64,000 bases of DNA, taken from positions 7,332,648 through 7,396,647 of the forward strand of contig CM073329.1 in the NCBI GenBank assembly GCA_037043015.1. Reading direction: 5' to 3'. Of the stretch, positions 17,301-52,099 are shown piece by piece. This stretch comes from Bryum argenteum (lineage: Eukaryota; Streptophyta; Bryopsida; Bryales; Bryaceae). The first letter of the stretch is position 1; each line of letters begins with the position of its first letter. The notes beneath the pieces are model-generated. The model had not been told where the DNA came from. It saw only the letters and a program-made list of their open reading frames with translations, and searched no databases. The position numbers and the translations under genes are program-made.

Positions 17301-18998
17301 CTAGACAGCACTACGCTGACGTGCATCACCAAAAGCGTCATTTCTATCACGCTTCCCAACAACTCGGCGATGGTCCGCTCCTGAGGACATTCCCACATGA
17401 GCGGCTATAGTCTGCAAAGGATCATTTAGCTTGACTGGTGCTAAATCACAATGGAATTCAAGATCTCTGGAATGAGCTAGGGTGTCATTAATCCCGGCCA
17501 AAGGGCCCGCCGTCATAATTGGGTTGTGATCACTTGTGGCTGCCATGATCCGATTACGTTGAATGACATGACTATCAACAACACCATCCTCGTCATCATC
17601 CATGACCTCCTTGGTATAGTCCACAGCGGATGCGTCGTCTGGAGCGGGAAATATGTACCGCCCTCTCTGCAACTCCGAGAGTGTCCTGGAGCCCTCACTA
17701 TTGAAAGAGGGATCGACAATCAAGACGGACAAATAGGGGGGATGTCATCTGATGAGGCAATATGTCGCTGGCCGGTAATAACCTGAATATCATATAAACA
17801 AACACTAAATTTGTCAAAGAAATTCGCATGGTAAGTCATTAAAACTCTTAGAAGTGACAATTCTCAAATTCATGAACGGGAGGATGAGAGAGGGTCCAAT
17901 ATCACATTACAAACCAAGCATTGCAATTTAGCTCTAGTCGAGCTATTAGCACAGAGAATTCAAACCAATACCATAAGTGAAGGTAATCACGGCAATGTTT
18001 TCCCATTGACCGGGAGCTGGTTCCACACATAGGGCAGATTCCGGGACATGATGCCGTAAACCTCGAAGTCCTTGGACAGGTCATTATGCGAGGGTCTACT
18101 ACTCATAATTTGACGGAAGTTCTCGGGACCTCTCAAATGTACAGCAAAACATAACTCGTGGATTAATTTCAAGGGGTCTGTGTCCGAAAATGGACCCGGA
18201 TGTGAATGGACCCAAGGGTCGGGAAATAGAGTGTTCATTGGAGGAACAGCCATACAAGCGGCAGGGTTGCTGTCGACCATAATAAAGTTGTTGGCATTGA
18301 AATTAGTTCCCTTTCTAGTGAAGAGACGTCGTCGCGGATATTTTAGGAGGATGGGATTAGTCGTGCCAGGGTACATGGCCTTCGAGTAATTCTTCAACAA
18401 GAGTCCATCGCAGGAGTCAGAGGCCAAGATGACTTGCGGAACGGCAGCGGACCTAGAGAATAGGAAAGAGCAAAGACCTTGGACGACCTCGGGCTGCAGG
18501 GTACTCCAAACGTGGATGTGGCAGAAACGGTTTAACACATTGAGGAACGGTGTAAGCCCTGGACGACAGTATACGACCATACCAGAAACTACGCTGGGAA
18601 TAGTGGAGGAAAGTACAGCCGGGTGTATGGGGTCCGGAAAGATAAGGTACTGAGGGGGCGCCTGGGACATAGGGGTAGTAGAACAGAGGACCCCGTTCAA
18701 CTCCAGCACCACATACAACCACTTGGGCATGGACTGCTGTCGATTGAGAGATGGCACAGGCGCTAACGGTTGACCGAGGGAGGTAGGGAAATCCCTGCGT
18801 GAAGATTTTGATAATCGAGCCTGCAAGTGACGATTACAGACGATATTAAAACAAAAGTGTTACCTTGCGAAATGCTGAAGCATGCAAATGACTGCTCGCA
18901 CTGATTGAGGACTGGACCGCCACACCGACTCTCAGCACAAGGTGCTCGGTGGGGGTTCTGGTGGCAATCGGACGGATTATGGTACTCAAAGGCGCGGC
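17301..18998 (-). CDS. FCP1/NIF-like HAD phosphatase-fold protein with lost catalytic DxD
   Basis: Exons proposed on the minus strand: 18998-18864 (45 codons), 18820-about 17991, and a last part 17784-17301 that needs a frame change at a six-C run near 17,740. The short first intron is only 43 nt. The main exon matches the small C-terminal-domain phosphatase fold: KWLYVVLELNGVL at the position of the usual DLDxTL motif, then CRPGLTPFLNVLNRF, HVWSTLQPEVV, SDSCDGLLLK and NNFIMVDSNP. The nucleophile and acid/base aspartates of DxDx(T/V) are replaced (E-L-N), so phosphatase activity is unlikely. The second intron contains one copy of the element's palindrome (17,927). It lies head-to-tail behind the ParB-like gene, which suggests a shared element. 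A 5' exon may be missing. Confidence 0.6.
17927..17948. repeat. Element palindrome, intron of FCP1-like gene
   Basis: TTTAGCTC-TAGT-CGAGCTATTA; right arm partly decayed. Confidence 0.75.
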
Positions 18999-19171
18999 CT
19001 GATAGAGAAATGACGATGTTTAGCCCCGAGTGGTGATGAGAAGGACGCTGACGCGGCCCATACGAAAAATGACATAGAAAAAAAGTCTTCCATTTTATTG
19101 AATGATGTGTATATATGGTAAAATTTACAATAAGTCACATCATCCAATAATTTGAAGACTAACTGCTGGAC

Positions 19172-21525
19172 CTACTCGCCGCCTTGAATGCCGGACTCCT
19201 GTAAAACAAGGAGCGCCGGCTTTAAGATTACTACATAGATAAAACAAAACACAAGCACGGAAACAGTATGAGCAAGTGCCCACCATCCAGTCAAACACGC
19301 AATCATAAGCAACCATGCACTGCCATTTAGCTCGAGCCGAGCTAAATGACCTATACGAAAATGAAGAAAGTAGCTCACCTTGGGGTTCGACGCTGGTGTC
19401 GAGACTGATTCGTTGTGCGCGGATCGACGGGGGCTGCCGGAACCAAACACCTCTTGCTCCACGCCTTCCTGCAACTCCTGAGCACCCCCAAGCGCCTCTT
19501 GCAAGGAGTTTGCACCCTCCGCGACAAGAGTCGGGGAGGCCGAGGTAGCGCCGTCACCTACGTCGTCATCTCCTCGGCTCGTGGCCACGACCGTAGTCGA
19601 CGGAGTCGTTCCGGTCGTCCGGCGCTTGAAGCGGATGTTGGCCATCATCCTCTGTTGCAATCGCAAGATTGGCCTCGGGAAGAGATGCCTCCTGGAAGGG
19701 TTGCTTACGGTCGGCGTTGTCCTGCTGTGCGGGTGAATTGGCAGCAGGAATGCGGGCAGGGACCGGAGGATGAGGGGTGCCGAGCCGTCTGGTGGGACTT
19801 GAAGCGTGGGAGTGGGACACCCGAGATAGCCGCAGGAGGCTGATTAACGGGGTTGCGGGAGGCAAGGGGGACAGGCGCCATAAGATGACTCATCTGTGCA
19901 ATATGAGTCATCATATGCCTCATCTCGCTCAGAACTGTGGTTTGGGAGCTTAAGACAGAGGACTCCAACCTGTCCACTTTGGCATTGAGGGCAGCTTGAT
20001 CAGCCTGCCTCTGCTCCTCCAACCTAGCAAGATCTTCAAGCCTTTGTGCCTCCCGTCTTGCATTCTCTGCTTGCTCCTCAGCTCGTTTGGCGGCCCTCTT
20101 ATCCTCCTTCTCCTTCTCCTTGAGTGCCCGTTTGGCTTCCTTCGAAAGTGGTGGAGGAGGAAGGTTTGTTTCCACCTTCACTCGCGGTTGTGAAGGTACA
20201 CCCTTCTCCTGCGGACCGAGAGGTACTAGCGGATCATCCTCCTCAGTAGGCTTAGGGGAATCAGGCTCCTCAGAGAAGTCGAAGAAGCTACACTCAACGA
20301 GATCATCCGGGTCGTCCGCGTGACTATTCCAAACTCCCCTTCTCAGCAAAGGAAGGTATCTCCCGCTAGCAAGTGCTGTAGCACGCGTTGAATCCCCAGC
20401 AGCCGCTGGAGTTGGCGATGGTTGACTTTCGGGTGCCGAGGCCGGTGCACCACTATCGAGTGCTGGTGACGGTGTTCGATCCGGCGCGGCGTGGACATCA
20501 TCACCCAACGCGTGAACATCTTTACCCAACTCCATGGGCTCGATTTCGATACTGTGGTCCCCGCCTGACGCATCGTTGTCCTGATCACTGCCATTCCCGG
20601 CGTCCTCTTTGTCATCAGAACTATCAGAGGTAGTCTGATCTCTAGGCATCCTCTCTTGCCCAGGCACGACTTCGTCTTCCGTGTCCGACCCAAAGACTTG
20701 ATGATAGCCGTCGTCAGCAGCCTTGGTGCGAGTCTCCCGACAAGCAGCGTCAAAATCATAGCCTTCGTCGTCGCTGAGTGTATCAGGGAGGCCAGTCTCG
20801 GCAAGGAGCTCGTCGCGGAGAGAGGGAGCATTTAGCTCGGCTCGAGCTAAATCTCCCCCCGTCGATTGCAATTGACAACGGTTCACCGGAGGTTGGGCAA
20901 TTTCATCGTCAGCATGTGACAGATTCGCCAAAAGGTTCCTCTGAACTGAACTGATGACGATTGGCTCAACGCCCGCAAGGAGAGAGGAGGTGCGCCCACC
21001 CCTAGTGCCCCTGGTTGACCATCCACGAGAACGAACAGCGCGACCTGATGATGTCGCAGCAGAAGGACCACCACGTCCAGCAAACGGCTCAGCATCACGA
21101 CCACGAACAGCAGACGACGGCTCTCGAACACGACTCACAACAGCAAACGAAGACCCACCACCACGAGCACGACCAGCAGACAAAACATCACCTCGGCCAG
21201 CACGACCAGCAGACAAAGGTTCACTACCACGAGCACGACCAGCAGACAAAGCATCACCTCGGCCAGCACGACCAGCAGACGAAGCTTCACCACCACGAGA
21301 ACGACCAGCTGACGAAGGCTCTCCACCACGAGCACCACCAGACCGTCGAATAAACCCAGGCTCAGAATCAGACCCAGGCTTCGGTCCATGAACCCATGCT
21401 ACATTCACGTAAGCGTCCACACAAAAGTCGTTCGGATCAAGGTTACAATTTGCGTCGAACACAGCGACGTACTTCTCCAAATCATCCTTGTCCTCGTAGA
21501 CTATGTGTGTTTGAAGATCTAGCAT
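19172..21525 (-). CDS. ParB-motif element protein, exons 4-5 (C-terminal part)
   Basis: Continuation of the gene whose exons 1-3 are at 35,356-38,395, separated from them by the intron that received the hAT. Exon 4 (21525-19379) starts after TTTGACAG in phase 0 with MLDLQTHIVYEDKDD; exon 5 (19198-19172) adds ESGIQGGE and stop. Order: an 11-aa RGG-type repeat (GRARGGEPSSA-like, 21,135-21,360), an acidic Asp/Glu/Ser-rich stretch, a Pro-rich stretch, and a charged coiled coil (KEAKRALKEKEKEDKRAAKR onwards). The palindrome at 20,830 is translated as DLARAELN. Exon 4 length is not a multiple of three and the frame must change between about 19,870 and 19,670, so it holds an indel or a missed intron. 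The composition suggests a nuclear scaffold or nucleic-acid-binding tail; function unknown. Confidence 0.65.
19325..19347. repeat. Element palindrome, intron 4 of ParB-like gene
   Basis: Perfect 10-bp arms ATTTAGCTCG / CGAGCTAAAT with spacer AGC. Confidence 0.9.
20830..20852. repeat. Element palindrome inside coding exon 4
   Basis: Perfect arms with spacer GCT; open in the gene frame, encoding DLARAELN. Confidence 0.9.
21135..21360. repeat. 33-bp coding minisatellite (11-aa RGG repeat)
   Basis: GACCAGCAGA-type word at 21,171, 21,204, 21,237, 21,270 and 21,303: an exact 33-bp step. Encodes GRxRGxEPSSA units on the minus strand. Confidence 0.85.
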
Positions 21526-21586
21526 CTGTCAAATGAAAGCAAAAGAGTAAGTAAAAGAAGCCAATTCAGAAATAAAGCAAGCAGGA

Positions 21587-21608
21587 ATTTAGCTCGAGCC
21601 GAGCTAAA
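21587..21608. repeat. Element palindrome, intron 3 of ParB-like gene
   Basis: ATTTAGCTCG, spacer AGC, CGAGCTAAA. A second, degenerate copy lies at 21,661-21,682 and provides the hAT target site. Confidence 0.85.
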
Positions 21609-21954
21609 CGGACATGGAAGGCAACAAAATAGAACATGAAAAACAGCAAACTTCGGCATTTTTAGGTCGATTCGAGCTAAAAGCAAGGTTGTCATATCGG
21701 GCGTGTTGAGGCAATCGGGCGGACAAAACGGACGTACGAGTTGTGCCGGACGGACGGGCGTGCCCGCCCACCTTGTTTGAAGGGGGCGTGTAATTTTTTC
21801 ATGGGTAAGAAACTTTGCAGTAAAAAGCCACGTAGGATGTGACGTGTAAGTCCATCGTGGCGTCGGGGCGGGTGAAATCGTGCCATGGCGAGTGAACTTT
21901 TGTTAGGGCGAGTGAACTTTTGAGAGGGCGGGTGAACTTTTGAGGGGGCGGGTT

Positions 21955-22140
21955 ACATTGGTGGCGGGGGAGGGGGGGCAGGGGGGGGTAGGGCGGGGGA
22001 GGGGGGGTAGGGCGGGGGAGGGGGGGTTAGGGGGGGTAAAGGGGGGGGTAAGGGGGGTTAGGGGGGGTAAGGGGGGTTAGGGGGGGTAAGGGGGTAAGGT
22101 GGGTTAGGGGGGAGGGGTAAGGGGGGAGTAAGGGGGGTTG
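21955..22140 (+). repeat. G-rich block 1 of the hAT element
   Basis: Runs of 4-8 G with interspersed GTTAGG and GTAAGG words; strongly G-biased on the plus strand. G-quadruplex potential. Confidence 0.8.
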
Positions 22141-22204
22141 ATGCGTTTTCATTTATTTTTTTTTTTAATTTTTTCTTGAATTTTTCTTTCGAGAATTTTT
22201 TTAA

Positions 22205-22390
22205 ATAGAAATATCGAAGTATTTACAAATTGATTCATGCATAGAGTGAGTGGTATTAGGCAAGGTATGCATATGAGCGGTTGGAAGAGTGAGGAGGGGT
22301 GGGAATAAGTAAATATGTGCACCCAAATCAAAACAATGTAATTAAATATGTCATAGGACTAAGTACACATGCATCGAATAAGAGAAATTG
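22205..22390. repeat. Shared 3' module, copy 1 (behind hAT transposase)
   Basis: Matches 32,715-32,860 in direct orientation: GATTCATGCATAG, GAGTGGTATT, AAATATGTGCACCCAA, AAATATGTCATA and TGCATCGAATAAGAGAA in the same order. Confidence 0.75.
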
Positions 22391-22662
22391 CCTTATTTTT
22401 CATACATAAGGCGAATGTAATGTAGTAAAAAGTAGAAAGCATGAATAATAATATGATATAATATAATTCATAGTGAATAACGATACAACGTAGATATAAG
22501 GAAATTATATATATTCTCACAACACATAATCTGAACTTCTCTATTTTTTTTTTCTTTTTCAATAAACTTATGCACTATAATAGGCTAATAATAGTGTCTA
22601 ATAAAGGACTACAATAATGATGAGAAGTTCTAAAATACCCAAATAGATAATATAAGTCCGTT

Positions 22663-25600
22663 CTACTTATTAAAACGATTTGATCGCCGCACCCTTTTAG
22701 TGGATGTACCCTCCATGTTGGGATCTCGGATAAGGTCTTGGAAAACAACGTCATCATCATCGGGCGCCTCATCGCACTGTGGGTTACCATCATCGTCGTC
22801 GTCGTCGTTGTTGCCACGTTCAATATCATTGTCGTCGTCGCTACCACTTGAAGAACAAGTAGACTCATTGCGAAGAAGGGCTATTTTTTCGCCGTATAGA
22901 TTTTCCTCAAGTCTAATAACCTTGTGTCTCTTTGCTCTGGGACACTCCCCATCCGAATTCACCGGCGGTCCTCTAGGAACAACAAAAGCTGGTGTTGATG
23001 AAGTGCGACCAGGAACATATGTGTCCACGAATGGTTCAATTACCGTGTTTGGGTTCCTCCCCCCTATTCCTAATGAACAACGCCCGCTTGGCACGGAAGA
23101 CAAGACATCGCCAACATTCTCGTCCCCTCCATCTACGATGTATGCGCAATGCCTCTAGGCCGTATCCATTTTGTAGTGGATGTTGAGCCTCCAAACCCTC
23201 CGCGGTCTATGTTTCCGCTAGGAGTGTTAGTTCCCCCACGTCCTCTAGCTCCGTTTCTTCCACGTGCTTGGTGGTATTGTCCCATTGGATGATGGATAGC
23301 TGGCATAGGGATAATAGGAGGCCTCCCACGGGACCCATCAGATTGGGAAGCTCTTCCACTAGCATTTGTTGCTCCTCCACTAGTATTTGGTGTAGGTGTA
23401 TTTAGCCCAGAGACTGTTCTAGCGACCGGAATATCCGCGTGCATAGGGTCAACATCATCGGTGAATTCGAATGCATCGTGAATCCTACTGATATTCGGAT
23501 CAAGACATTGGGGCGCAACAACGGGTGTAATAGTTCTCCCAATCCCTCCCAATCTTGATGCATTTGGGCTATTTCCCACTTCTCGCGGGGCCACATCTTC
23601 AAAACGATCCACAATTGTTGTATAGGTATTGGGAGTTCCAATAGTACCAATTGTGCCATCTTCTCCCTCGTTCTGCTCATTATCCTCATTGTTTCCGAAA
23701 GAGGGGTGGTTGTAGTTAACATCATGAGCGGGTATGGTTTGATTTGCTTCACGATCTAGCCCATGATCTGAATCTTCGTTTTCCGAATCCAATACTGTAA
23801 TCCGCGCTTGATTGATGCCGACATTAGGGCGATTGTCTGGCGATGGAATGCGACGAGTAGGACTTGTACTCCATGCTCCAGCACCCCAACGGATTGGCTC
23901 TTGGTCATCGTCCATTGCATCGTCTTCACCGTAATATTCCCTACTCTCCCCTAGAAGGTCCGCACCTTCAGCCCAGAGATCTGGATTTTGTCGGTACTCT
24001 CTACCTTCCCAATTGGCTTCCATGTCACTATCGTCCTCTTCTTCTAGGAACTCTCGGTTGGGCTCATCTACCGGAACTGGGCCGAGGGCATCTGGGTCTG
24101 AATCCTCTGAGTTGGCATTGTCTTCATACCAGCGAAGTGGTTCGGGCCCTGGTCTTTTCTGTAATACACGGCCATTGGTATAGATATACACTAATGTCTC
24201 TGCCTTTTCTGGGCCTAACCGATTTCGGCTCTTATTGTGCACAAATGAGTAAGCACTCCAATTACGCTCACATGAACTAGCTGAACATGTGAGAGACAAT
24301 ATGCGTACCGCTATTTTGGAAAGGTACTGATCTCCAATCCTATACCACCATTGATGGGGGAGCATGTTCATTGCACGGATGTCGAAGGCAATGTCGGGGC
24401 TATATGGCCCTGTACCTTCGTCATACTCTTGTAATTCGGATATGACGTCTTCATACTTCACACCCACCACGTCTTTTAATTTCTGAATTACACGATATAG
24501 CGCACGGAGGGCTACGCCATCTTGCTTTAGCGCTGCATTCTCCTTGAGATATGGATTCAAGAGGGCAGCTGCGTAGTGAAGATCCGTAAAACACATGGCC
24601 CTCCTCGCTTTGAATGAATCCTCCAATATTGTTGCAATATCTGGTCGGACGCTAAATGGTGGATCCCTGAATGAAGTCACATGTTGATGCAATCCTTGTA
24701 GTATGAGCCATGCCTTACCCATTGCGGGTTCTCGGCCATCAAACACGCGTAATGCTTTCAAAACCTCCTGCGTCATGTAAATGAAATTCTTGCACCGCTG
24801 CCAGAAGGCCCCATCCTCAATGGTGCGCACGATATTGCGCCAGCGGTGGGCGCCCGCTCCCCTCCCATCCCCGTCCCTCAAGGTATTGGTATAGTTTCAA
24901 CTCGGGGATGGTCTTTCAGTGCCTCTAGGACAGGCTTGAGTTTGACGAGTCGGTCCATCATCAACATATTGCATGCAAAGCGCGTCTCCCCCGGCACCAG
25001 GATTGAGAGTTTAGGACTCAATTCACGAAATGTTGCCATTGTTGCATGATGGTTCCTAATATAATGGCACAACTTTCTTGCCCTCTCGATAAGGTCCTTG
25101 AAGATGTCGATTTTTGCCCAATCTTCCAATAGGAGATCCAAAGCATGAGCCATGCATCCTTGCGAGAAAATCCATGGATACTCCTCGATGATACATTTCA
25201 TTGCTCCAAGCATGTTTGCAGCGTTATCCGTACACACTGCAAATCACATTCTTAGGTCCCACCTTCTCAATGAATACTTTGAGTTTGTTTGCTATATACG
25301 TCGCAGATTTTTTGTGCGCCGGTGGTGTCAATGCTTCCTAGAAATACATCTCCGGTGGGCACGTCATCATCACATTCATGAGGGGCCTACGATTAACATC
25401 GTCCCAACCATCGGTGCATATGGACACCCCATACGCGGATTTTGCAAATCCGATTCTTGACTCAATCTCCTTCTCGACTCGCAATCGGGCTTTGGGTTCT
25501 ATGAGATTAGTCCTGAATTGGTGATAAGATGGAGGAACATAGTCAAACCTCGCCTTGGAAGTTGCTAAAACCGCTTCAATAAAAAACGGGTTCCGGCCAC

Positions 25601-26155
25601 GTTGAATGGGATATTTGCGTTATAGAAACAATTTGCCACTTTTCATCCAATTCTCTTCTCTTCGCGGTGTTCAAAGATTCCTCCATGCTACGTTGGCGCA
25701 TCGCTACGGACCTCGTAGAATTTGATGCGCCTCGGGTAGGCCGACATGGAGTTTGGATTCTCACGTCCCTCTACCACGCACGCATCCCGGCCTCCTCTGT
25801 GAGGACTTCCACCCCTCACTCCAACCCCTGTGTTTGTATCAACACCTACATGGCATGAAGAACCACTAGGAATTCCGTTGGAGGCACCATGTGTAGTAGA
25901 ATCTCCACCGTACATGTCTTCATCACTCATTCTGGCGGGAACTATGCCCCCACAATTTGCAAACCTGCTGCGAACACGATGCGGTACAAGGGAACACACA
26001 CTCTTCTCGGATTTCGGCATGTAGCCTAGGTGCATGAATGCTCGAATTCGTTTGTAGGTGAATGTTGTGTTGCAAAAAACACAAGTAATGTTCCCATCAT
26101 CATGAAATTCATACCACGAATTCCACTCTCTTGTTGTCCTCCGTTGGCTTCCCAT
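22663..26155 (-). pseudogene. hAT-family transposase, frameshifted
   Basis: Starts at ATG 26,155 with a BED-type zinc finger (CVFC followed by a His near 26,040), then a linker, the DUF659 region with CTDGWDDVNRRPLMN (about 25,400) and CTDNAANMLGA (25,237), the QGCMAHALDLLLEDW motif, and the hAT C-terminal dimerisation motif SSCERNWSAYSFVHNKSRNR (about 24,260). The C-terminal third is Asp/Glu/Asn-rich and ends in a basic tail (TKRVRRSNRFNK) at 22,663. The frame is interrupted near 25,700, 25,590, 25,330, 24,880 and 23,130; conserved motifs continue in another frame each time, so these are small indels rather than introns. A functional protein would catalyse movement of the 13.6-kb element. 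This copy is probably inactive unless the indels are assembly errors. Confidence 0.85.
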
Positions 26156-26296
26156 CGCATTCGAGCCTAAAGGATGAAGGTTCTAGTGGCCAATTTGGTA
26201 TATCATGTAAACCCTCTTAATAATTTTTTGCTCTATTCTCTTGCCTGAACCAATTTTGACATTACCTCCGCTGTCAGCTAGCGCTGGTTGCCATCG

Positions 26297-26450
26297 TTGT
26301 AGAAAAAAAAATTGAAAACCTCCTCCCAATGTGCTGAAACGCCCTTCCCCAATCCTCAATCCAACCCTCACGAAGATAAGTGGATCTTGAGAGCTAGGAG
26401 GGGCGGGTTACAAATGAGAAGTTCGCCCCTTATATAGTGGTTGTACTCCA
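26297..26450 (-). promoter_or_regulatory. 5' module of hAT transposase gene with TATA box
   Basis: Contains minus-strand CTATATAAGG (26,429-26,437). The whole block is homologous to 31,990-32,140 upstream of the RING gene (shared AAACGCCCTTCCC, CAATCCAACCCTCAC, AGTGGATCTTGAGAGCTAG and GGGCGGGTTACAA). Confidence 0.8.
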
Positions 26451-26479
26451 TGGTACATGGATGGGAAGATGGGGATTTC

Positions 26480-27115
26480 AATGGGGGTAGGGCCGTAGGG
26501 GCGGGTTACGGGGGCGCGGAAGGGGGCGGGAGTAGGGGGGGAAGGGAAGGGGGGCGGGGGGGGGGGCGGGGCGAGGCGAGAGGGAAGGGAAGGGGGGGGG
26601 GGGGGGGGAAGGGGCGGGTGGGGCGGGTGGGGCGGGTGAGGGGGGTGAGGGGGCGGGTGAGGGGGAGAGGGGGTAGAGGGAGGGATAAGGGGGGGTAGGG
26701 GGTAGGGGAAAGGGGAGGTAGGGGGATGGATAGGTTATAGGGGGTAGGGGAGGGATAGAGGGGGGGAGTAGAGGGGGAGGGATAGGGGGGGTAGAAGGGG
26801 GTAGAGGGAGGGATAAGGGGGTAGGGGGTAGGGGAAAGGGGGGTAGGGGGTAGGGGGATGGATAGGTTATAGGGGGGTAGGGGGAGGGATAGAGAGGGGG
26901 GGTAGAGGGAGGGATAGGGGGGTAGAGGGGAGGGATAGGGGGGGGTAGAGGGAGGGATAGGGGGGTAGAGGGAGGGATAAAGGGGGTAGAGGGAGGGATA
27001 ATGGGGGGTAGAGGGAGGGATAATGGGGGGTAGGGGGGGGGGGAGGGGGGGGAAGGGGAGGGGGAAAGGGGGTGGGAGGTGGGAGGTGGGAGGTGGGATA
27101 GGAGAGGGAGTAAGG
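26480..27115 (+). repeat. G-rich block 2 of the hAT element
   Basis: About 635 bp of nearly pure purine: GGGGG runs with AGGGATAG and GGTAGAGG words on the plus strand. Long glycine or proline frames here are artefacts. Confidence 0.85.
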
Positions 27116-27180
27116 ACACGTGCTGCGTTTTTTAAATGTTGTTTAAATTTTTTAATTTTTTAAATAAAATGTTATTTGAA

Positions 27181-27850
27181 GAAGAATGAATTAAACATAA
27201 TACCACCCACCAAGACATTCTCGTAGTCCTAATATAAATTGTGATCGTAAAATCAAATATATGATTAAACCATTAGGATGATAAATTTATTTGTAATATA
27301 GTATTGGGAAGAAGAATGAAATAAACATAATACCACCCACTAGTACATTCTTTAGTCCTAATATAAATTGTGATCGTAAAATCAAATATATGATTAAACC
27401 ATTAGGATGATAAATTTATTTGTAATATAGTATTGGGAAGAAGAATGAAATAAACATAATACCACCCACAAAGACATTCTTTAGTCCTAATATAAATTGT
27501 GAACGTAAAATCAAATATATGATTAAACCATTAGGATGATAAATTTATTTGTAATATAGTATTGGGAAGAAGAATGAAATAAACATAATACCACCCACTA
27601 GTACATTCTTTAGTCCTAATATAAATTGTGATCGTAAAATCAAATATATGATTAAACCATTAGGATGATAAATTTATTTGTAATATAGTATTGGGAAGAA
27701 GAATGAAATAAACATAATACCACCCACCAGTACATTCTTTAGTCCTAATATAAATTGTGAACGTAAAATCAAATATATGATTAAACCATTAGGATGATAA
27801 ATTTATTTGTAATATAGCATTGGGAAGAAGAATGAATTAAACATAATAGA
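27181..27850. repeat. 129-bp AT-rich tandem repeat, five copies
   Basis: GAAGAATGAA recurs at 27,181, 27,311, 27,440, 27,569, 27,698 and 27,827; step 129 bp (130 for the first). Units include TAATACCACCCAC and GATTAAACCATTAGGATG. Confidence 0.92.
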
Positions 27851-28058
27851 AGGTGGGATTGGAGAAAAATAGCACACATTTTAAGAATATCATTTTTTTT
27901 GGGACGTGGTAGCTCGACTTTGAAATAGAGGGGGGAATTGGTTTGTAGTGGGGCAATCTTGAATAAGAGAGGAAATACGGAAACTTCATTTCTCTCTTTC
28001 CTTGGATCCCCCCTTGGCTCCTTCTTCCACCTACCGGGTATTTTTAAAGTAATGAAGT

Positions 28059-42032: not shown

Positions 42033-42399
42033 TAAAATTAGGCACCACAAGCCTTGGCTTGGTGGTCAGGGCTTAGGCCCCCAATGAGGAGGTCGTGGGT
42101 TCTATTCCCCATGCCGGCGTGGTGCTCACCACTTTAGTCCACCCAACTATTGTGGGGGGTCTTTGGACCTTGTTGTATGGGTACCTCAAAGCCCTTTGGG
42201 GGGATACTATGTCAAGTATCCTCAAGGCACTTGTAACTAGCTAGAAACTAGCGTAGTTATAGTGTCCACCCTCGAGAGGGGGAAGTAGTATTGTTCCAAT
42301 TTCCCCTTGTCCGATGGCCATCGGGATATTAGCATTACGAACGGACACTTCATTCACGCCGGCCCCTTAGAAAGGGACCGGAGTTTCTATCTATCTATC
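42033..42399 (+). mobile_element. tRNA-derived SINE, 367 bp, with 14-bp target duplication
   Basis: TACCCTATAAAAAA is present at 42,019-42,032 and again at 42,400-42,413. Near the 5' end is an RNA polymerase III promoter: A box TGGCTTGGTGG (42,055-42,065) and B box GGTTCTATTCC (42,098-42,108). The 3' end is a (TCTA)n simple repeat. No coding capacity. Not a tRNA gene: there is no cloverleaf with an anticodon arm or CCA end that I can fold. Confidence 0.9.
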
Positions 42400-45300
42400 T
42401 ACCCTATAAAAAACATGAAATATTGTTTGAATGCATGAAAGAAATGGAAGTACGTTACAAAGAAGAATAAAATCAGGTTCATATAATTAGGCTAACTAAT
42501 AAGGACCCTAAAAATAGTATGAAATTATACAAGAAATCATATGGCATACAAATCTTTGGCTTTTTATGATCATAGTTGACGTAGTATATTGTCAACTCTC
42601 CTGCCAACATGTAATTTCTGGTTTCTTGTTTCTTGATTGTAGCTTTTTAGGAACTTTTGTTAATCAAGTACATCTATTTGGTTTTTCTGTTTCTTGATTG
42701 CGATCTTTTAGAAATTTTTCCATCTGTTGGATATGAGAAAATAGTTGTGTACAACTTCTTAATGATTTCCACTCATGAGCATGATTTTCTTACTTTTTTA
42801 ATTCTTATAAATTTCTCTCCTCTTATGATTGTTTAGTTTACTGAATTATTTCTATCGGCAAGTTTAAATCTTGAAATAACTAATTAATACCTTATGAAAA
42901 TTATAAAAAAATAAAAAAAATCACAAGTCATACGGATTCATAGGCTGCATTATACTTGCACGTATTGGAAACCAAATTACAACATGAAGTACTACAACCA
43001 TGATCAGAAGTAATTTCTAGAAATTAAAATAATCTTACATTGCCTAAATACTAATTCTAAATTTACAAGCTCAAGTCTAATAATTAAAATTTATAAATGA
43101 TAATAATCCCAAGTCTAATAATTAAAATATAAAATCTAAATAATAATCTCAAGTCTAATAATTAAAATTTCTAAATAATAATAATCTCAAGTGCAAGAAT
43201 TAAAATTAAAATTCTAAAGATTCTTAATTTAGAAATCTAATATTTTCAATCTTAGAAATTATGTTATATTTTCAATCCAACCAAAGAAATACAACCCTAA
43301 ACCAAGATCATGCCTTAGAACATTATTTACACGCACAAAAAACAAAACTTGAAAAAAAGCAAAATCTCAAATTAACCCGAAAGTGGACGAGCCCCAAAAC
43401 TACACAAATGACAAATTACTGTCTCTAAATTACCCTCTTCAAATGAATTGTGAAAATGCACAAAATTAGTCGTACTTTTCAATGTGTCCTTGTAGAATCT
43501 CGTACCGACAAATTCTTCTCGATAGCAAAATTCAATTATACGACACACTCTATATTATACCGATGAGATGTTCATAAGTTAATCCCTAAGTTAAAAAGTG
43601 CCATAAATTGAACCAAAGGTAAGTTATTTAGATCTCAACTGTAAAATCTTGTAGTAGACATGTTGTACATCATGTGGATCAATTTTTGAGTCATGAGGCC
43701 TCATAGATTGCGAGATCATAAGGTATTAGTATTTAGAAAACATTACAAAATCTCAAGATTTTCACTTTGAAGTGAAAATGCTACCAATAGACTTATTGCA
43801 ATGAAAATATCACCAACTACAAAGATGTTAACCTTCATCTCAATAACACCAAAGAACAAGAAAACCATTAGATTGATTTCTTTGCGCAAATAATGGCCTT
43901 GCAATGGTGAAATCTGCTTAAAATTTTACAAAGAAAAAAATGTCCAAAACTAGGCTCCTTGCACAAATTAAAGTGAATGTCATAACTTTTTAGCATCCAT
44001 GATGGAATTAAGGTTTCCAATACAGAAACAAGATTAAATTTTTAATCCAACCCAACCAACAATATTGAAATTAGTATTGCGAGATCAGAAGGTATTAGAT
44101 TGCAAGATCATAAGGTATTAGATTGCAAGATCATAAGGTATTAGTATCCTCAAAAACCATTTATATTTTTAGTTTTTTTAAGATAGAAACATCATTGCAA
44201 AACCAATACTTTAACTATTCAAAACAAATCTCTTCCAACTACAAAGTTGTTGGATTTCATTTTGAGATCATACTTATGCAAAAAAAAATTCATGAAAAAC
44301 TAAAATGGACTTCACATTCCGTAAATTTCCTGGCCATAAGAAATTCAAGTACGACCACACTGATAGTAGATGGATTGACGTAGATACGATCATTACCACT
44401 GTTACACTAGAGTATAACTCGTCCACCGATGTGTACACACTGGATTTTGTAGATGCCGATGCGCTAAATTAGTTTGTTAATGATAAAAAATAAGCAATTT
44501 TAAATGTTGCCTTTAATCTTGCCATGGTTAACAACTTAACATGCCCCATGTTTGAAAACCCAAAAACAAGAGCTGCGGTCACTAAAATGCATGCCTTTAA
44601 TTCATACTTCATTTTATGGCTCTCAGTCACATTTTTACCACACTAACTAGACTTGATTTGTGACCTAATCCAAGTAATTTTCACCAAAACGGAGTCCGGA
44701 TGAAGAAGTTATGGCTCTTTAAAGTTTAGGAGGTCATCCAAAATGTCATCCAAGCGTCGTTTTTTCGACATTCGGTCCATTTAAGGGTTAATCCCTAAAC
44801 GTCTGAAATTGCCTTTACGGCCATTATAATATGATGGTGTATTTTACTAGTATTTGAAATGAATTTGAATCTTTTATAGGCCTCAATTTAATACAAAAGC
44901 TGAAATTTACATCAAGACGATTCTACTGAGCTATTCGCGACCAAATTCAAAACTTTTATTGATAGAAAATGCCAAATGCATGGTCACATATCTACTATGC
45001 CTATGGGTCCTTCGGAGTTAGGGGGTTAAAGAATGCGTCCGTGGCTGTGAATTTGAAGCTTTAACAAGATATTCGGTTCATAGACATTTTGGCCTCCATA
45101 AATGAACGTGATGATTGCGGTCATACGAAGGCTACTACACGAGATCCTATCATAGCTCTGAAGTCAACCGTTTTTAGGCCGGAATAGAAGTGGGATCGGT
45201 GAACTCCCCCGGAAGTCTAGGTGCTACACCCCGGCCCATTGCGAATAATAAATACTAATAGAAGTAATCGTTTTGTGAAACATTTGTACTTATAGTAAAT

Positions 45301-46738
45301 TGTTTGCCGCGTGGAGTTAAATGAGAGAATCAGATGTGAACTAATTTACAATGGCTGCAAATACATCATTAAGAAAAATAGCGTCTACACCGCATAAGTT
45401 CGAGATGTTTCTCGCATTACACAATTTAGAAGCCCAAAGCTTCACTTCGAAGCTTAAAGTCTCAATTGTGAGGTGTGCATTCGTGAGCTTTGTGTTCGAA
45501 AAGAACAGGTGTAGCGATTTTGGAAAATTGAAGAGGTGCATGAAGTTATAATTAGCTAGAGTAAGTTTTCAAACCACATTTTAATATTTGATTAAATTTA
45601 GTATTTTACAATTTTAATTATTACTTAAACATATAATTTGTTGATATTAATCTTTCAGAAGTTTGTATTTATTCAAGGGTTAAATTGTGCAGTAATATTA
45701 CGGGGGAAATTTAATAATCAAATATTTGTAAAAGCATTAGTCGATCTATCCGTACGTATGAAACTTAAAATTTCAAATTTTAACACTTTGATTATATCAA
45801 TTCTAAAATATTCTTCTAAATACTAGTTTATGATGTTTTTCTCAAATTGTCAAATCTGAAACACCCTTCTAGGTTTTAAGAGTTAATCTATTACAATGTG
45901 TTAAATTAGTAAAGCTTCTAGGAAAGGCTAAGAGCATTAACCCCTTAAACGACCATATTATATTTTAAACTCAAAAACTCGCAAACTTTGATTTTCTACT
46001 AAATAAATTTAAAGAAAGAGGTATATTTTTTGAACTTTTTAAAATCTTTCAACGCTAAGATCTTGATTATAAAGTAACATCTGGAATTGGGATTAACATT
46101 TCAACTGTCCGATCATTACCATTTCTCTGATTTTTATACTTGAAATCTATAGTCATGTTTTTGAGAATTAATATTTAAAATATACATAATTTATATATCG
46201 CAACAATGTTTACCGTCGTGTGTTCTATAAGAGAAATGGGAAAAAAACTTATTCCATAACTATTTTAGTTGAATTTTTATTAAATCTTTTAAGTAGTCTA
46301 CCTAAGAAGTTTTATCAAATGTGACCCCTTATATCTTAAGACATATTTAGTCAAAGTTCTTAGTTTAATAAAAACTTTCAAGGCTTGAGTCATCATGTTC
46401 ATTTTGGCATTAGTGATTAATTTTTGCCAAATTTATCATGCAAATTCCGTAATGGAGGAGATTCCCTATATTCGGCTTACAATGCTTTAACATGTATGAT
46501 GATTGAAAACCCAAAAATAAAGCTACGTTCACTAAAATGCATGCCATTAAATCAAACATTATTTTTTGGTCCCCCTATTTGAACTCCATTAGGTAGACTT
46601 CATTTCGAACCCAACCCAAGTGATTTCATCCAAAACGGACATACGATGAAGAAGTTATGCTTCCTCAAAGATTCAACTTGTCATTTAGGGTCGGCTGGGT
46701 AGGATTTTAATTTTTTTAATGCGGGCACATTCTGACCG

Positions 46739-46912
46739 TTGGCGCCTTTTTTTGGCGCCCTTTTTTGGCGCCCATATTTGAAGAATTTCGAGCTTTGTCT
46801 TGGCGCCTTTTTCGGTGTTTTTCGTTTCCTTCTCTAACTTTGCTCTTCGTTGGGTTTTCCTCCGCCTCCAAACCCCTATCCTCCGCGGTCGTGGCTCTCG
46901 GTTTTGGCGCCC
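46739..46912 (+). promoter_or_regulatory. Cluster of five E2F-like sites (TTGGCGCC)
   Basis: TTGGCGCC occurs at 46,739, 46,752, 46,765, 46,800 and 46,904 (about), three of them with a run of T before GGCGCC. This fits the TTTSGCGC core of E2F/DP sites. It lies upstream of the palindrome array and the DUF7869 gene, at the likely transcription start region. Confidence 0.6.
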
Positions 46913-47328
46913 ATTTTCTGCCTCGCGCGTTTCTTCGAGGCGCTCATTCTCTCCCTATCGCTTCCTATCCGCCTCGCGCACGATCTTCTAGCTTTTGGTC
47001 ATTCTATGCCTCCCGCTCTCCCCCACGATTGCCTTTCTATCAACGGGTTTTGCTGTTTAGGGTTTGCAATTGCCGATTCACCTCTTTGTCGATGCTGCTA
47101 GCTGCCAATGTCTTTCAGTGTGAGTAACACGCAACACTTTGCAAATTCTCCTCGTAATTCTCCTTGGTGTCGTTGAAGTTCTCATCTCTATTAACACCGT
47201 ATATGAAGCCGTATTTTGTGTGCACGGATTCCGAGGCACATTTTGGACACAAATACATGGCACGGTTCCCGAGGAGCATTTGACGCCTGCTTTCTACATA
47301 ATACAAATTGGCATGGTTTACAGGGTCT

Positions 47329-47769
47329 ATTTAGCTCGAACCGAGCTAAATGCCACAATTTTCATGTTTTCTTTGAGTTACTGTCTGTATTTTTGTACTC
47401 ATGCAGGGTCGATTTAGCTCGAGTCGAGCTAAATGCCACAGTTGCCATGTTTTCTTTGAGCTGCTCTCTGTATTTCTCGTACTCCTGCAGGGTCGATTTA
47501 GCTCGAGCCGAGCTAAATGCCACAGTTTCCATGTTTTCATTGAGCTACTGTCTGTATTTCTCGTACTCCTGCAGGGTCGATTTAGCTCGAGCCGAGCTAA
47601 ATGCCATAGTTTCCATGTTTTCATTGAGCTTTCATGTATTATTTCTCGTTCATCACAGGTCGATTTAGCTCGGGTCGAGCTAAATTCCACAGTTTCCATG
47701 TTTTCATTGTGCTGCTGTCTTTATTCCCCCCACTCCTGCAGGGTTGATTTAACTCGGTTCGAGCTAAAT
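47329..47769. repeat. Tandem array of six palindromes, period about 83 bp, 5' of the DUF7869 gene
   Basis: Palindromes at 47,329, 47,412, 47,496, 47,580, 47,663 and 47,747. Spacers are AAC, AGT, AGC, AGC, GGT and GTT while the arms stay nearly constant. Units also share CCATGTTTTC and CTCCTGCAGGGT words. Confidence 0.93.
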
Positions 47770-48459
47770 GGTACTGGGTGATGGTCTGGTTGGGGTACCC
47801 AAAAAGGTTGTCCCATGAACAATTGCACTCTATGCTGGTGTGACAAACATATCCATTTTTAAACTGTAATACAATAAGACTTCATTAGATGTGGTTTTAG
47901 TTGTCTATACTTATAATGTATCAAGAAAAAAAATTAAAAATTAAAAAAAATATTTTGAAGTAATTTTATTTGATTTTTTAGTTGAAAAAGTAAGTCATGT
48001 CCCAATAACCTAAAATCCATTGAATCAAGCAAATGGAATATCAACCATTTTTATTTTAATATAATTTTTGAATATGACCTACATCTTCTTGTATAGAATA
48101 CAAAATAATTTATTTAATAATAAAAAAATTAATTCATTGTGCACTATAATGCCTGCAAATCCCCAAATTCAACACTTTTTCCCTCATCTATGAATGGATC
48201 CAAAAAAAATAAAAAATCTAAAAGAAAATCTATAGGCATATATACTTTGATTTCAGTGAGGTGCATGATATTTTATTTTCTATTTTAGGGTCTTTTTACT
48301 TGATTAAAATGACTAAATTAGACAAACTTTGGAGGCTTTCAATAAAAATAACCTAATTAGTGTATCCAAAAAGTGATACCCCAAGCTTACCATTGCCCTA
48401 CTCCTTTCATTGATCCCTTTATCTAGAGTTTGTGTATGTAGAACTCCTGTCGTGGTCAA

Positions 48460-48481
48460 CTTAGCTCGATTCGAGCTAAAT
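48460..48481. repeat. Element palindrome, 5' region of the DUF7869 gene
   Basis: CTTAGCTCG, spacer ATT, CGAGCTAAAT. A half-site ACTAGCTCGT follows at about 48,545. Confidence 0.85.
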
Positions 48482-48577
48482 GGTACCGTATACCCGGATT
48501 CATTGAGCTGCAAGCAGTGTATTCTGTACTTCTGTCAGGGTCAAACTAGCTCGTGCCCCGCGTCTCACGCTTGTATG

Positions 48578-48598
48578 TTTAGCTCGAACCGAGCTAAG
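48578..48598. repeat. Element palindrome, 5' region of the DUF7869 gene
   Basis: TTTAGCTCG, spacer AAC, CGAGCTAAG. Confidence 0.85.
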
Positions 48599-48757
48599 TT
48601 TCCATGGTTCATTAGTGCGGAGTTTTCTTTGTTCCCAAGAAGTATCGATTGCACTTTTGTTGGGCCTAACAATAGTTTCCTATCGCTTTTGTGTGTAGTG
48701 TCCTTCATTTCTCTATTTTCCGACAGCGGCATCTTGGTGATCTCCACAGAAGTATCG

Positions 48758-48778
48758 TTTAGCTCGATTCGAGCAAAC
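48758..48778. repeat. Element palindrome, just before the DUF7869 start codon
   Basis: TTTAGCTCG, spacer ATT, CGAGCAAAC; 18 bp before the ATG at 48,796. Confidence 0.85.
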
Positions 48779-48795
48779 CTTACTTATTCAATAGG

Positions 48796-51738
48796 ATGAC
48801 TAGTGCATCCGATGCCGAATGGGATCGTCTCGATTTCTCTTCAGAGGTATTGTTTTATATCTATTGTAATGTTTTTCATGATGCCTTTATCGGCTTCAAT
48901 ACTAAAATATTTTTGTCGTCCTTGTTTCAGGATTCAGATGCTCCTGAGGTTTTTTTGCCTGATCGGTTAAAGGACTGTCCCGGAATTCCACGAATGAAAT
49001 GGAATACGAAATTTGTGACCCTGCTGGATGGCGGAGGGGCCATCGCTGCAGAAGGTATTTGTCAAAGCATCGCTTCTGAGTGTTTGCCTGATTCGGAGGA
49101 CGAGCCATTATTTACAAGATGACGAAGTATTTGTTCAGATCGTGAAGTGTGTGAATCTCGACATCGTACTTGCGGACACTATATTTGGGACGAGGAAATG
49201 GAAACTTAGCCACGCTATTTATGAAGGTTGGTCACTTCAAGATCATTTACAGCGTGATGAGTACAACGTTGTTGTTTTTACTCGTGATCATCCTAAGCGA
49301 AAAGGGATTCGTCCATATGCCTTGGGCCATCGAAATCCCCGTGTCGTGAGGACCAAGAGAGAAGAGATATTGTTAACGATGGAGTCCGTGAACTTGGTTT
49401 CAACAATGTCGTGCTGCAATAAGAATTGTTGCCAACCTTATCCAAGGGAAAAGATCATGGCTCTTCGTAAGCATATGTACGAATCTTCGGATTTCAAGTT
49501 TAAGGCACACTTCAAGATTGATGTTCATCACAGATTTCACCAGGTCGCTGATGGAAGTATAATGGTGACAACTGAAGGCATTGATATTTGCGCACGTGCT
49601 TGGCAGAATATCAGCGGCGTACCCCCTGCGACTTTCTATAGGAAAAAGGCTCAGGCTGCAGCTGGTCTTCGTGCACGACATCATGGTAATGTTGGACAAA
49701 AGAAACCTCGACTTCACGTAAAGCAAGCTGTTGCAACACTGAAGACTTTAGTTGATAACGCTGCTGATCATTTGCCGCACAAAGCAAAGATGCTTTCAAA
49801 TGGGGTGAAGGTCGTCTCTCGATCGTTGCCGTCATCTTTCAGATGGAAAGATACAATGCCAGAGATTAACCTCATCAATGAGAGGTTGGGCCTCAAACTT
49901 ATCTCTCAGAGCTCTCTTAGCAAGATGAGAAGGGCAAATTTCTCTGAGTACTCCAAAAAAGCCCCGGGGGACAATTTTGCTCGCTGCGCTACTTGTGTGA
50001 GGCTTGAGTCAATGATTAAGTCCATGGTGCCAGATTCTTCTGAAGAAAATATGTGGATCAAGAAGCTCCGACTTCATTTGAATCATCAAGAAATGCATCG
50101 AGAATATTATTACTCAAACCGGTCGATGTCAATCCAACGACCCCGAGATGTTTTATGCATTATTCACGACAAGATGGACCACGCGAAGACGATTTTTGCC
50201 CTTTGTTTTCGCATAAAACAAAATCCAACGACGCTACCGATGAAACTTCCAATTGTTTGTCACGGGGATGATCGCACACGGACATTGCGATGTTCGCTAT
50301 GCTCACTACGGCCTCGACATCTACCCTAGTGACCGCAATCACACGGTTGGTTCCATGTTGAAGCTTTTGCGAGATCTTGAAGGCGTTCTCTATCGCATTC
50401 TAAAGCATTATTATTTGGATCGTGAGTCACCCAATATTTTCTTCACGCTTCACCTTTGGAAAAGATGGTTGTTTGAACTCTCTTCTCACGGAAAGCGAAA
50501 CTTCGTGAGTTGCTCAACCTCTACCTCTGTTTTGCATATTCAAACTTGATAACGCGGCTTCCGACAACAAGAATCGGTTTATGTTTTGTTTTTGGTCTCT
50601 CCTTGTACACATGGGAGTGTTTCGAGAAATTTATGTCAATTTCTTATTAGTTGGGCATACTCATGAAGATATTGACGCTCTCTTGGACGGTGGAGCATGA
50701 TTTCAAAGAAAATGACTTTTTGACGATTCCTCTATTGATGAAGTCATTTATGGACGCCGAGGCTCTTCTGTGATTCCACATTTGATTGAGGAAATTCAAG
50801 ACTTCAAGGGCTACATTAAAGATTTTATTGCTTCAAAAGACGAAATTCTTGTTGGCCATTCCGAAGGACAACAATTTAAGTTTTTCAAGCATGACAATGG
50901 GTGGCCTATAATGAAATACAAGATGTTATGTACCGACAGTGAGTGGCTCCCATCTACTAGTGGAGGTATAAAATTGTGGAAAGAAGATGCGATTACGGGG
51001 AAGCCTTTACTGCCTACCGGTGAAATGAAACCATTGGCGTCAATTCCCATGAAGAATCGGGATGAAATTGTAAAAGGTATTTCAGGCTTTATAAAGATGT
51101 GGGAAACTTCCTGTGCTCAAGACATATCAGGAGAATATCGACGAGCACACGATTCCGTTATACGGTATTGGCGAGCAGTCAATCTTGCATTGGTAGAACC
51201 TATCGAGGTTTCTTTAACGTTGAAGAATGGTTGTTGGCCTTCATCCCAAGTGCCTCCTACTCGAGAATTTCTGAATACTGGCGAATTACGTGAGGAATAT
51301 GGGTAAGATCCGCACTTTATTGGTCGCTTGTGTGATAGACCAAGAGAATCATTCCGTGTTGGTCGTGACGTTTTTGCTGGGTATTTTCTTGCTTTACGTC
51401 CTGCTGATGGAGATGCCCGACCATTTTGGATTGCGAGGGCCTTGACCGATTTTGATGTTGATCGCAACAATCCAAGGTGTATTCAAATTCAATACTTTCG
51501 ACCTTTGAGTAAGCGCCCTGTTGTGCAAGATACGTATGTTGGTTGGGATACACATAAAAGTTTCAAATGGATTTTCGACGATACTCAGGACCCAGTTTGG
51601 CTTCATGGAGGTGCTATTTTTACGTCATGGAAATCTAGCGCAAAACTTGGCTCTCATCGTCCGACAATTTCAATTTCGGAGCAACAAGTGAATATCATTA
51701 AGCAGAGTATTGTACGCTTTGAGGCGGATGAGGAGTAG
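48796..51738 (+). pseudogene. DUF7869 transposase-like protein of the 35.6-kb element, decayed
   Basis: ATG at 48,796; exon 1 48,796-48,846, intron to 48,930, exon 2 onward. Family motifs appear in order although the frame changes: IIHDKMDHAKT (about 50,160), MIAHGHCDVRYAHYGLDIYP (50,265), LDNAASDNKNRF (50,545), VNFLLVGHTHEDIDAL (50,640), then a C-terminal part with PFWIARAL and IQIQYFRP. Conserved Asp residues in the HDKMD, DNAASD and HEDID motifs suggest an RNase H-like catalytic core. Breaks: near 49,100, 50,250, 50,510, 50,682 (one T missing in a TTTGG context), 50,760, and an in-frame TAA at 51,304-51,306. A functional version is the likely mover of the element. Upstream are E2F-like sites and the palindrome array; two palindromes follow the stop. 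Confidence 0.8.
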
Positions 51739-51770
51739 GGGAACAATGTCAGATCATACCGCGCAGTGCA

Positions 51771-51794
51771 ATTTAGCTCTGGTCGAGCTAAATT
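51771..51794. repeat. Element palindrome, 3' of the DUF7869 gene
   Basis: ATTTAGCTCT, spacer GGT, CGAGCTAAAT; left arm has the CTCT variant also seen at 17,927 and 52,075. Confidence 0.9.
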
Positions 51795-52074
51795 AATCAC
51801 TTGGGGTTTTATTCTTGGAAGTTAATCTAAGTGTTACTCTCCTCATGAAAATCTGTCACCGGAGTTGGGTTTCAACATTCGGCTAAACTCTAATAGCGGA
51901 GCAAGGACTGAATCTCAGCAAGTACTGTTTTCTACCTTCTTAGCCGGACGAGGAGTATGGGACGATTCTGGATCATTTTAACCGTTGAGAAGTTCAAGAT
52001 TTTTTACTCCAACATTGTGTCGTGAGAAGTGGATGAGTAGTTCGAGGAGAGTTGCAGATCTTTCGACGCATAGC

Positions 52075-52099
52075 AATTTAGCTCTAATCGAGCTAAATT
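52075..52099. repeat. Element palindrome, last copy before the right end
   Basis: AATTTAGCTCT, spacer AAT, CGAGCTAAATT. About 470 bp inside the right terminal repeat. Confidence 0.9.

Follow-up and report, generated by a model that had tools for sequence, protein, structure and literature searches.

A palindrome of fixed half-site spacing in a superfamily of two-gene moss transposons: a probable docking site for an element-encoded protein

The CACTA (En/Spm) transposons have subterminal sites for the protein TNPA. ParB proteins carry a GERR-type CTP/nucleotide-binding box, and there are bacterial and phage proteins in which ParB-like and DNA-methyltransferase domains are joined. The target site duplications (TSD) of MULE elements are 9-10 bp long. 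For the VANDAL elements of Arabidopsis, two reports demonstrate that VANC proteins bind their motifs and that demethylation results; these motifs are short, non-palindromic (YAGTATTAY; AGTTGTCC/AC), and arrayed in one orientation (PMC5735166, PMC10398659).

The window, that is the whole 64-kb stretch of Bryum argenteum DNA analysed here, contains an outer DNA transposon of 35,583 bp (16982..52564), a length that includes a nested hAT of 13,642 bp. The outer limits are set by similarity and TSD: the copies on C2 and C6 cease to resemble it at exactly 16982 and 52564, and a 4-bp TSD is present in all three copies of the element (TTAT on C9, CGTA on C2, and TTAG on C6). Comparison of the copies also identified 28 bp terminal inverted repeats (TIR), the left, AACACGTAATTCGTTATAATGGGAATAT, at 16982..17009 (+) and the right at 52537..52564 (-). 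The nested element (21684..35325) has both the 8-bp TSD (GCTAAAAG, at 21676-21683 and 35326-35333) and the dimerisation domain (Pfam PF05699, E 8.4e-9) of a hAT, and its insertion point is the right edge of the palindrome at 21660. The minus-strand gene of the outer element includes exon A (36814..38176) and exon B (35356..36690), both with splice ends read by eye, and exon C (19708..21528), which has low-complexity and charged repeats and has homologous frames in other copies. An open frame on the same strand (17987..18859) is NIF/CTD-phosphatase-like (Pfam PF03031, E 1.9e-9); this family has a DxDxT motif, at the position of which the frame has LELNGV. On the plus strand is a broken DUF7869-type transposase gene (48808..51738) with no single open frame across it, the pieces of which are 40-47% identical to an intact 963-aa frame in another stretch, L009.

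A scan of the whole window found 22 sites with 3 or fewer mismatches to ATTTAGCTCGNNNCGAGCTAAAT, compared to 0 in 100 shuffles, and 25 sites with 6 or fewer, spanning 17424 to 52098. All 25 are inside the outer element; at 6 or fewer mismatches there are none in the nested hAT and none in the window outside the outer element. This bears out the initial annotation, which had counted about 24 copies and had seen none in the hAT or beyond the element. A chance origin is ruled out by the empty shuffles together with the complete absence of the reversed pattern from the genome. The sites are in introns, 5' arrays, and 3' flanks, and one (20830-20852) is in frame in exon C, all as had been described, with the addition of a weak site with 3 mismatches (17424..17446) in another open frame (17301-17744, minus strand). 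Predicted introns contain sites at 19325..19347 (0 mismatches), at 21587 and 21660 between exons C and B (21587..21682), at 36743..36765 between exons A and B, and at 38199..38221 (0 mismatches) upstream of exon A. Upstream of the minus-strand gene is an array with a 104-bp unit (sites at 38490, 38593, 38697, 38801, and 38905) and a decayed site at 38960, together occupying 38490..38982. Upstream of the transposase gene is an array of six sites with an 84-bp unit (47329..47769), and three further sites (48459, 48577, and 48757, within 48459..48779) are between it and the transposase start. Phased arrays had been described; the two here have units that are not alike. At the 3' end of the transposase gene, the sites at 51771-51793 and 52076-52098 both read ATTTAGCTCT-RNT-CGAGCTAAAT; the site that flanks the minus-strand gene on its 3' side (17926..17948, 4 mismatches) has CTCT in its left arm, as do both of these. 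The sites closest to the TIR ends are 415 bp inside (the weak site at 17424) and 466 bp inside. No Rfam family was matched at the gathering score in the window.

The palindrome had been described as restricted to one element and as having a free 3-nt spacer. The first is correct for the window, but in the 258.8-Mb genome there are 6193 sites with exact arms and a 3-base spacer, shared by a whole superfamily of elements. The second has to be abandoned, as the spacer is R-N-Y in 6077 of the 6193 and exact arms with another spacer of up to 30 bases number just 21 (5 with 0-2 bases and 16 with 4-30 bases). Since both the length of the spacer and its R-N-Y pattern are constrained, the site can be seen as a pair of half-sites, YCGAGCTAAA, that face each other across one base. 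The innermost R..Y pair mixes freely (A..T 106, A..C 14, and G..T 8). As read from the sequences, the half-site is this core with an outer extension specific to the family, and the two halves are always one bp apart. Among the 99 changes are 26 CpG transitions, all at just 4 of the 18 arm positions, a frequency that suggests that the copies of the motif are probably methylated. The R-N-Y pattern was found in 3 stretches of the prokaryote contigs (genome_contigs) and in none of the viral contigs (viral_contigs). Two of the three are Rhizobium stretches with one identical site each, which look like chance; the third is L009.

It had been left open whether the palindrome is a protein-binding site or an RNA hairpin. 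A hairpin with a role in splicing, stability, or as a small-RNA precursor, or else a DNA cruciform, would be in keeping with the numerous sites in introns near splice sites. Covariation between the arms, which the initial annotation had proposed as a check, is seen at outer pairs -1 and -2, where it is above all within-group shuffles, and at core pair 5 in one protein clade, clade II (70 versus 52.3), but core pairs 0-9 outside clade II have no excess of complementary pairs. Single linkage of the sites by flank similarity had put 140 of 188 in one family, leaving 29 uneven 'families', and the test was therefore repeated within element groups. Family-specific symmetric half-sites would explain most of the outer and clade II covariation, though not all. 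Single arm changes that keep pairing through a G-U wobble number 18, against 15 giving A.C and 70 others. The spacer is constant at 3 bases, so that loops of other lengths are nearly absent, the innermost pair combines freely, and there are six-fold arrays upstream of a start codon. These observations weaken the case for a hairpin or cruciform, which is now considered very improbable. Because the spacing is fixed and there is no G-U bias, the sequences favour a double-stranded DNA site bound by a dimer. A DNA-binding site tied to the elements is likewise supported by the half-site grammar, the avoidance of exon B, and the persistence and clade-specific change of the site among diverged homologues.

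From its distribution in the sequences, the palindrome is a mark of a superfamily of two-gene DNA transposons in moss-like genomes, in which a DUF7869 transposase is paired with a divergently oriented gene for a putative ParB-like/methyltransferase-like protein. Among the first 100 sites listed, 98 are in clusters adjoining one of the two element genes, as are 12 of the 13 clusters that these sites form. The remaining cluster, C1:1119773-1120027, has no element gene within 1116300-1124000. For three clusters the element gene was absent from one stretch beside them (L062, L065, and L066) and present in a second (L069-L071). The AGCTCG motif is common to element families with just 26-33% protein identity, and the palindrome is retained in homologues of 36-68% identity, including those from other samples. 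A peptide encoded by the motif, for which the patterns were our own back-translation, was found only in P0001-P0004 and P0036 among 81 proteins, and the 11 exon-A homologues P0005-P0015 are all without it; such a distribution would be expected were the motif visible only in frames that enter non-coding DNA. The arrays are enlarged by tandem duplication, and a palindrome carried along neutrally by such duplication and by copying within elements would need no function. This is extremely unlikely: the length of the array unit varies from element to element (30, 33, 35, 38, 46, 78, 84, and 104 bp) while the palindrome itself recurs, the separate motif places in the outer element are similar to each other over just 24-28 bp, and the site is kept in homologues as diverged as those above.

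A symmetrical change of the half-site to AGGTCG is limited to clade II (n=25 in the exon-B tree), and only 106 exact AGGTCG palindromes are present genome-wide. The transposase tree is congruent with the exon-B tree, thus the change of motif cannot be assigned to one gene. The transposases of L087 and L088, which had been considered as 36-kb partners, fell in another clade and are probably mere neighbours. Were the sites bound by a host transcription or silencing factor, with the elements keeping or suffering parts of promoters or insulators, one motif might well be common to such distant families, and the CpG transitions that point to methylation would also fit. However, the symmetrical change in only one element clade, the low genome-wide number of AGGTCG palindromes, and the adjoining of element genes by nearly all of the first 100 listed sites where sites at host genes too would be expected, make a host factor distinctly unlikely.

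The second element protein appears, in low-confidence models, to be composed of a ParB-like fold and a degenerate methyltransferase-like fold. The ParB N-terminal fold is seen in the model of exon A, the C-terminal half of which is ParB-like with IDGQHH; in the exon A proteins, IDGQHH or INGQHS is in the place of the GERR-type box. No helix-turn-helix was identified in these models. Exon B has Foldseek and VIA-align matches to amino-methyltransferases, with a motif-I-like SIMGGTKP and a degenerate motif IV (IDLRC). The catalytic (D/N/S)PP(Y/F/W) of amino-methyltransferases (beta class / MT-A70 like) is replaced by IDLR or IDFR in the window, in P0001-P0004, and in the paralogue in L007/L008. 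Sequence profiles do not support either domain reading: Pfam gave just weak matches for exon A members (DndB in 2 of 12 at E 0.15 and Tea_C in 1 of 12 at E 0.058) and only IcmF-related and UBA_N4BP1 matches for exon B members (E at least 0.13), NCBIfam gave nothing relevant, and the PDB profile search gave only OprM (E 0.68). Exon B is nearly free of sites (5 of 248), and the introns, promoter arrays, and 3' flanks are filled with them.

The intact L009 frame matches DUF7869 (Pfam, E 1.7e-42), with no MULE family in Pfam at E of 1 or less and no PDB match at E of 5 or less. This stretch is filed under a cyanobacterial MAG; it is taken to be moss DNA since the named relatives of its transposase are from Ceratodon purpureus and Physcomitrium patens. 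The transposase gene is the only element gene on its contig and is flanked by palindrome sites there too. Since an array and 3' sites flank the transposase gene in both places, and the congruent trees leave the motif change assigned to neither gene, the transposase could itself bind these dispersed sites, in the manner of TNPA of CACTA/En-Spm, for transposition or transcriptional repression. The sites are, however, set back from the element ends and mostly in promoters and introns, and binding by the transposase is considered unlikely.

We infer instead that the palindrome is probably a docking site for an element-encoded protein, the purpose of which is perhaps escape from host silencing. The site would be recognised as double-stranded DNA by a dimer, most likely of the ParB-like/methyltransferase-like protein. 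Members of the superfamily carry sites in introns and at 3' ends as well as in tandem arrays that precede both genes. By analogy with VANC, this protein would cover the non-coding DNA of its own family and so keep it expressed or unsilenced. Our confidence in this full account, from dimer site to VANC-like anti-silencing, is evenly balanced. A more specific version, in which a ParB-type clamp with a dead methyltransferase loads at parS-like palindromes, spreads, and blocks methylation or silencing, the half-site having shifted in one clade, is unlikely.

Literature searches did not find the palindrome motif in this sense, the best of the matches listed for the 285 papers with one of its 9-mers being primers and unrelated; no paper was found for 'DUF7869', and nothing relevant on similar moss arrays, or on ParB in connection with transposons of plants or other eukaryotes, was among the matches listed. 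Should an element-encoded anti-silencing protein dock at these sites, moss elements would have evolved a sequence-specific escape from silencing with proteins quite unlike those of the Arabidopsis VANDALs. The thousands of natural sites, the fixed grammar, the families with different outer half-sites, and the one clade with a changed core would allow a direct test of whether a transposon protein and its target co-evolve. In a plant transposon, the union of a ParB-like fold with a degenerate methyltransferase would in itself be unexpected, and the palindrome is a usable marker of the superfamily even if its function is another.

With CACTA and TNPA, the moss elements share a short site, specific to the element, that is present in numerous direct and inverted copies, but those of moss occupy promoters, introns, and 3' flanks rather than crowding at the ends. 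With ParB and parS, they share a putative ParB-like fold, weakly modelled, and the linking of a protein to clustered palindromic sites, but the nucleotide-binding box is IDGQHH and the setting is a eukaryotic transposon without ParA or a partition context. The order of the putative ParB-like and amino-methyltransferase-like domains is that of the bacterial and phage fusions, but in moss the domains are split over exons and the catalytic motif is IDLR or IDFR in the copies compared. The elements are not MULE-like, given the DUF7869 match and the 4-bp TSD, and exons A, B, and C have no VANC-family match in Pfam. The moss elements resemble the VANDAL system in that a short motif peculiar to the element is tandemly repeated in its non-coding DNA, including introns and upstream regions, in that this motif differs among related families, and in that the candidate reader is a second protein of the element, separate from the transposase. 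They differ from it in the site, a long odd palindrome with one core motif common to very diverged paralogues, and in the DUF7869 transposase, the TSD of 4 bp, and the putatively ParB-like/methyltransferase-like second protein. By this comparison, the closest known system is VANDAL/VANC anti-silencing, though the genes are different.

The core of the palindrome, TTTAGCTCGNNNCGAGCTAAA, was identified 6193 times in a scan of the genome (258.8 Mb, 25 contigs); the same pattern read backwards is absent. The half-site YCGAGCTAAA occurs 8936 times in the forward sense and its reversed control 425 times, so a large share of the additional copies are lone halves or belong to damaged palindromes. The initial annotation described the 3-base spacer as free. 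It is not: 6077 of the 6193 core sites have an R-N-Y spacer, against about a quarter expected of a free one, and the exact arms have spacers of 0-2 bases in only 5 cases and of 4-30 bases in 16. The R-N-Y rule, the near-absence of other spacer lengths and the half-site counts show two half-sites facing each other with one unconstrained base pair between them, which makes the site an odd palindrome.

In the window, there are 22 matches to ATTTAGCTCGNNNCGAGCTAAAT with 3 or fewer mismatches (none in 100 shuffles) and 25 with 6 or fewer, all between 17424 and 52098. At 6 mismatches none is found in the nested hAT or in the rest of the 64 kb, in agreement with the roughly 24 copies first reported as confined to one element and missing from the hAT. 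They were also said to occupy introns, 5' arrays, 3' flanks and one exon, and all of these positions are seen. Each element gene has an array upstream of it, built of 104-bp units near 38.5-38.9 kb and of 84-bp units at 47.3-47.8 kb, and individual sites are present in introns and at the 3' end of each gene. The exon is exon C, where palindrome 20830-20852 is part of the coding frame and is read LARAELN. Other copies of exon C have sites in comparable positions (L013, L016, L022 and L041).

The site variant with spacer AAC has 6 exact copies in the genome, forming three pairs, one each on contigs C2, C6 and C9, with some 9 kb between the two sites of a pair. Comparing the ends of these three element copies, of which the window holds that on C9, places the outer element at 16982-52564, with a 28-bp TIR and 4-bp TSDs of TTAT, CGTA and TTAG among the copies. 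Immediately to the right of the copy on C2 are pieces of a second, more distant DUF7869 transposase (L059, 762-2776), so an older element adjoins or encloses this copy. The outer element contains two divergent genes. The plus-strand transposase gene (48.8-51.7 kb) is broken in the window copy, its pieces sharing 40-47% identity with an intact 963-aa frame on contig L009 that matches DUF7869 (E 1.7e-42). On the minus strand, exons A and B, with ParB-like and methyltransferase-like folds in low-confidence models, are open, exon C is charged and of low complexity, and there is a NIF-phosphatase-like frame (E 1.9e-9).

The nested hAT (21684-35325; 13.6 kb), recognized by its dimerisation domain, interrupts the outer element at the edge of palindrome 21660 and has the TSD GCTAAAAG. 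Open frames on the same strand include one that weakly matches RING (29508-31154) and one of 321 aa for which Pfam gave no match; the hAT also encloses a 129-bp satellite array (27178-27848) and tracts rich in G or in C. The outer element is flanked on both sides (11066-15341 and 54739-60678) by a gene-sized unit, present in four near-identical copies (93-100%) that are partly direct and partly inverted, with a 160-aa secreted-looking frame that has no Pfam match. Elsewhere in the window are two long minus-strand frames of transposon-like appearance (4539-6484; 250 and 407 aa), with no significant Pfam match, and a plus-strand host-type pre-SET/SET histone methyltransferase exon (2508-3302; Pfam E 1.9e-12 and 1.5e-8).

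Restriction to one element holds for the window and fails for the genome, where the core is found beside diverged element genes. The first 100 core sites listed, joined when less than 7 kb apart, form 13 clusters; these lie within the initial 1.31 Mb of contig C1 and do not sample the genome at random. In 12 of these (98 sites) a transposase or ParB/methyltransferase-like gene, in some cases only 22-33% identical to that of the window, is beside or between the sites; neither was found in the 7.7 kb read for the remaining cluster. There are at least 85 copies of exon B and at least 96 of the transposase. Among the matches listed, 47 of the 85 exon-B copies have a transposase within 40 kb (43 divergent, 2 convergent, 2 in line) and 38 have none. 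Around exon B, 40 loci hold 248 sites with 4 or fewer mismatches, 5 in exon B, which makes up 55,932 of the 165,941 bases, and 243 outside it; sites are present at all 40 loci and on both sides in 39. Contig C1 (44.1 Mb, 17% of the genome) carries, among the matches listed, 67 of 85 exon-B and 80 of 96 transposase copies; it may be a sex chromosome or rich in repeats for another reason.

In the exon-B tree, 25 of 40 copies form one clade, clade II, in which most half-sites have AGGT instead of AGCT (per locus, 8-16 G versus 1-8 C). Of its nearest relatives, L040 is mixed (5 and 5) and L022 and L041 are mostly AGCT, while the 55-60% clade has AGCT only, in each of its nine copies. Genome-wide there are 106 symmetrical AGGTCG sites. 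The outer bases adjoining the core are symmetrical too, and family-dependent.

Four exon-B homologues from other assemblies (36-68% identity) have open frames continuing into the next intron, where each of them encodes the motif (LARVELK/N, FSSSRAN, FSSTRAK). A search for the motif peptides in the reversed sequences of 81 fetched proteins gave no matches. Contig L009 has 8 sites with 6 or fewer mismatches (0.24 per shuffle), all outside the transposase frame, upstream and downstream as in the window. This contig (CADCWO010000071.1) is filed under a cyanobacterial MAG, of which it is probably contamination because the transposase it encodes is of moss type. Relatives of the transposase that carry a name come from two mosses, Ceratodon purpureus (2 of 66 matches) and Physcomitrium patens (4 of 66), which points to a moss as the host.

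Both a protein-binding site and an RNA hairpin had been proposed. Across 83 distinct sites there is no excess of G-U pairs, single changes leaving 18 G-U, 15 A.C and 70 other combinations. Double changes keeping Watson-Crick pairing number 22, of which 20 are the replacement of C-G by G-C that marks the AGGT clade. The arm-covariation test proposed with the two readings gave a divided result. Outside clade II, core pairs 0-9 do not exceed shuffles in complementarity and the two bases of the innermost R..Y pair vary freely in combination, but there is strong covariation at outer pairs -1 and -2 (91 v 54.3 and 81 v 39.2 of 131). Core pair 5 covaries in clade II (70 v 52.3 of 114), where pairs -1, 7 and 9 go in the opposite direction. 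The outer-pair signal is present with one consensus per flank family (23 v 12.6 and 19 v 11.2 of 29), and within element groups (111 v 94.5 and 102 v 83.6 of 159) the excess is smaller, yet above all 2000 shuffles. Family-specific symmetrical half-sites explain most of it; the remainder may reflect common descent among array copies or some residual structural function. Taken with the fixed spacing, these results lead us to favour a putative dimer on double-stranded DNA over a hairpin.

Judged from sequence, the palindrome is probably a double-stranded DNA site of an element-borne system, and the ParB/methyltransferase-like protein is, by a small margin, more likely than not its binder. Of 99 motif changes, 26 are CpG transitions, at 4 of the 18 arm positions, and 19 are other transitions; this richness would be expected if motif copies are methylated. 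Anti-silencing is a tentative outcome, proposed by analogy with the VANC proteins of Arabidopsis VANDAL elements, for which motif arrays outside coding sequence, a dedicated protein besides the transposase and motifs that differ between related families are reported (PMC5735166; PMC10398659). The moss element matches this with non-coding motif arrays, whose units vary in length, with a second gene of its own and with a half-site that is specific to one clade. A close parallel is made less likely by the core motif, which paralogues of about 26-33% identity have in common, whereas VANC targets change fast.
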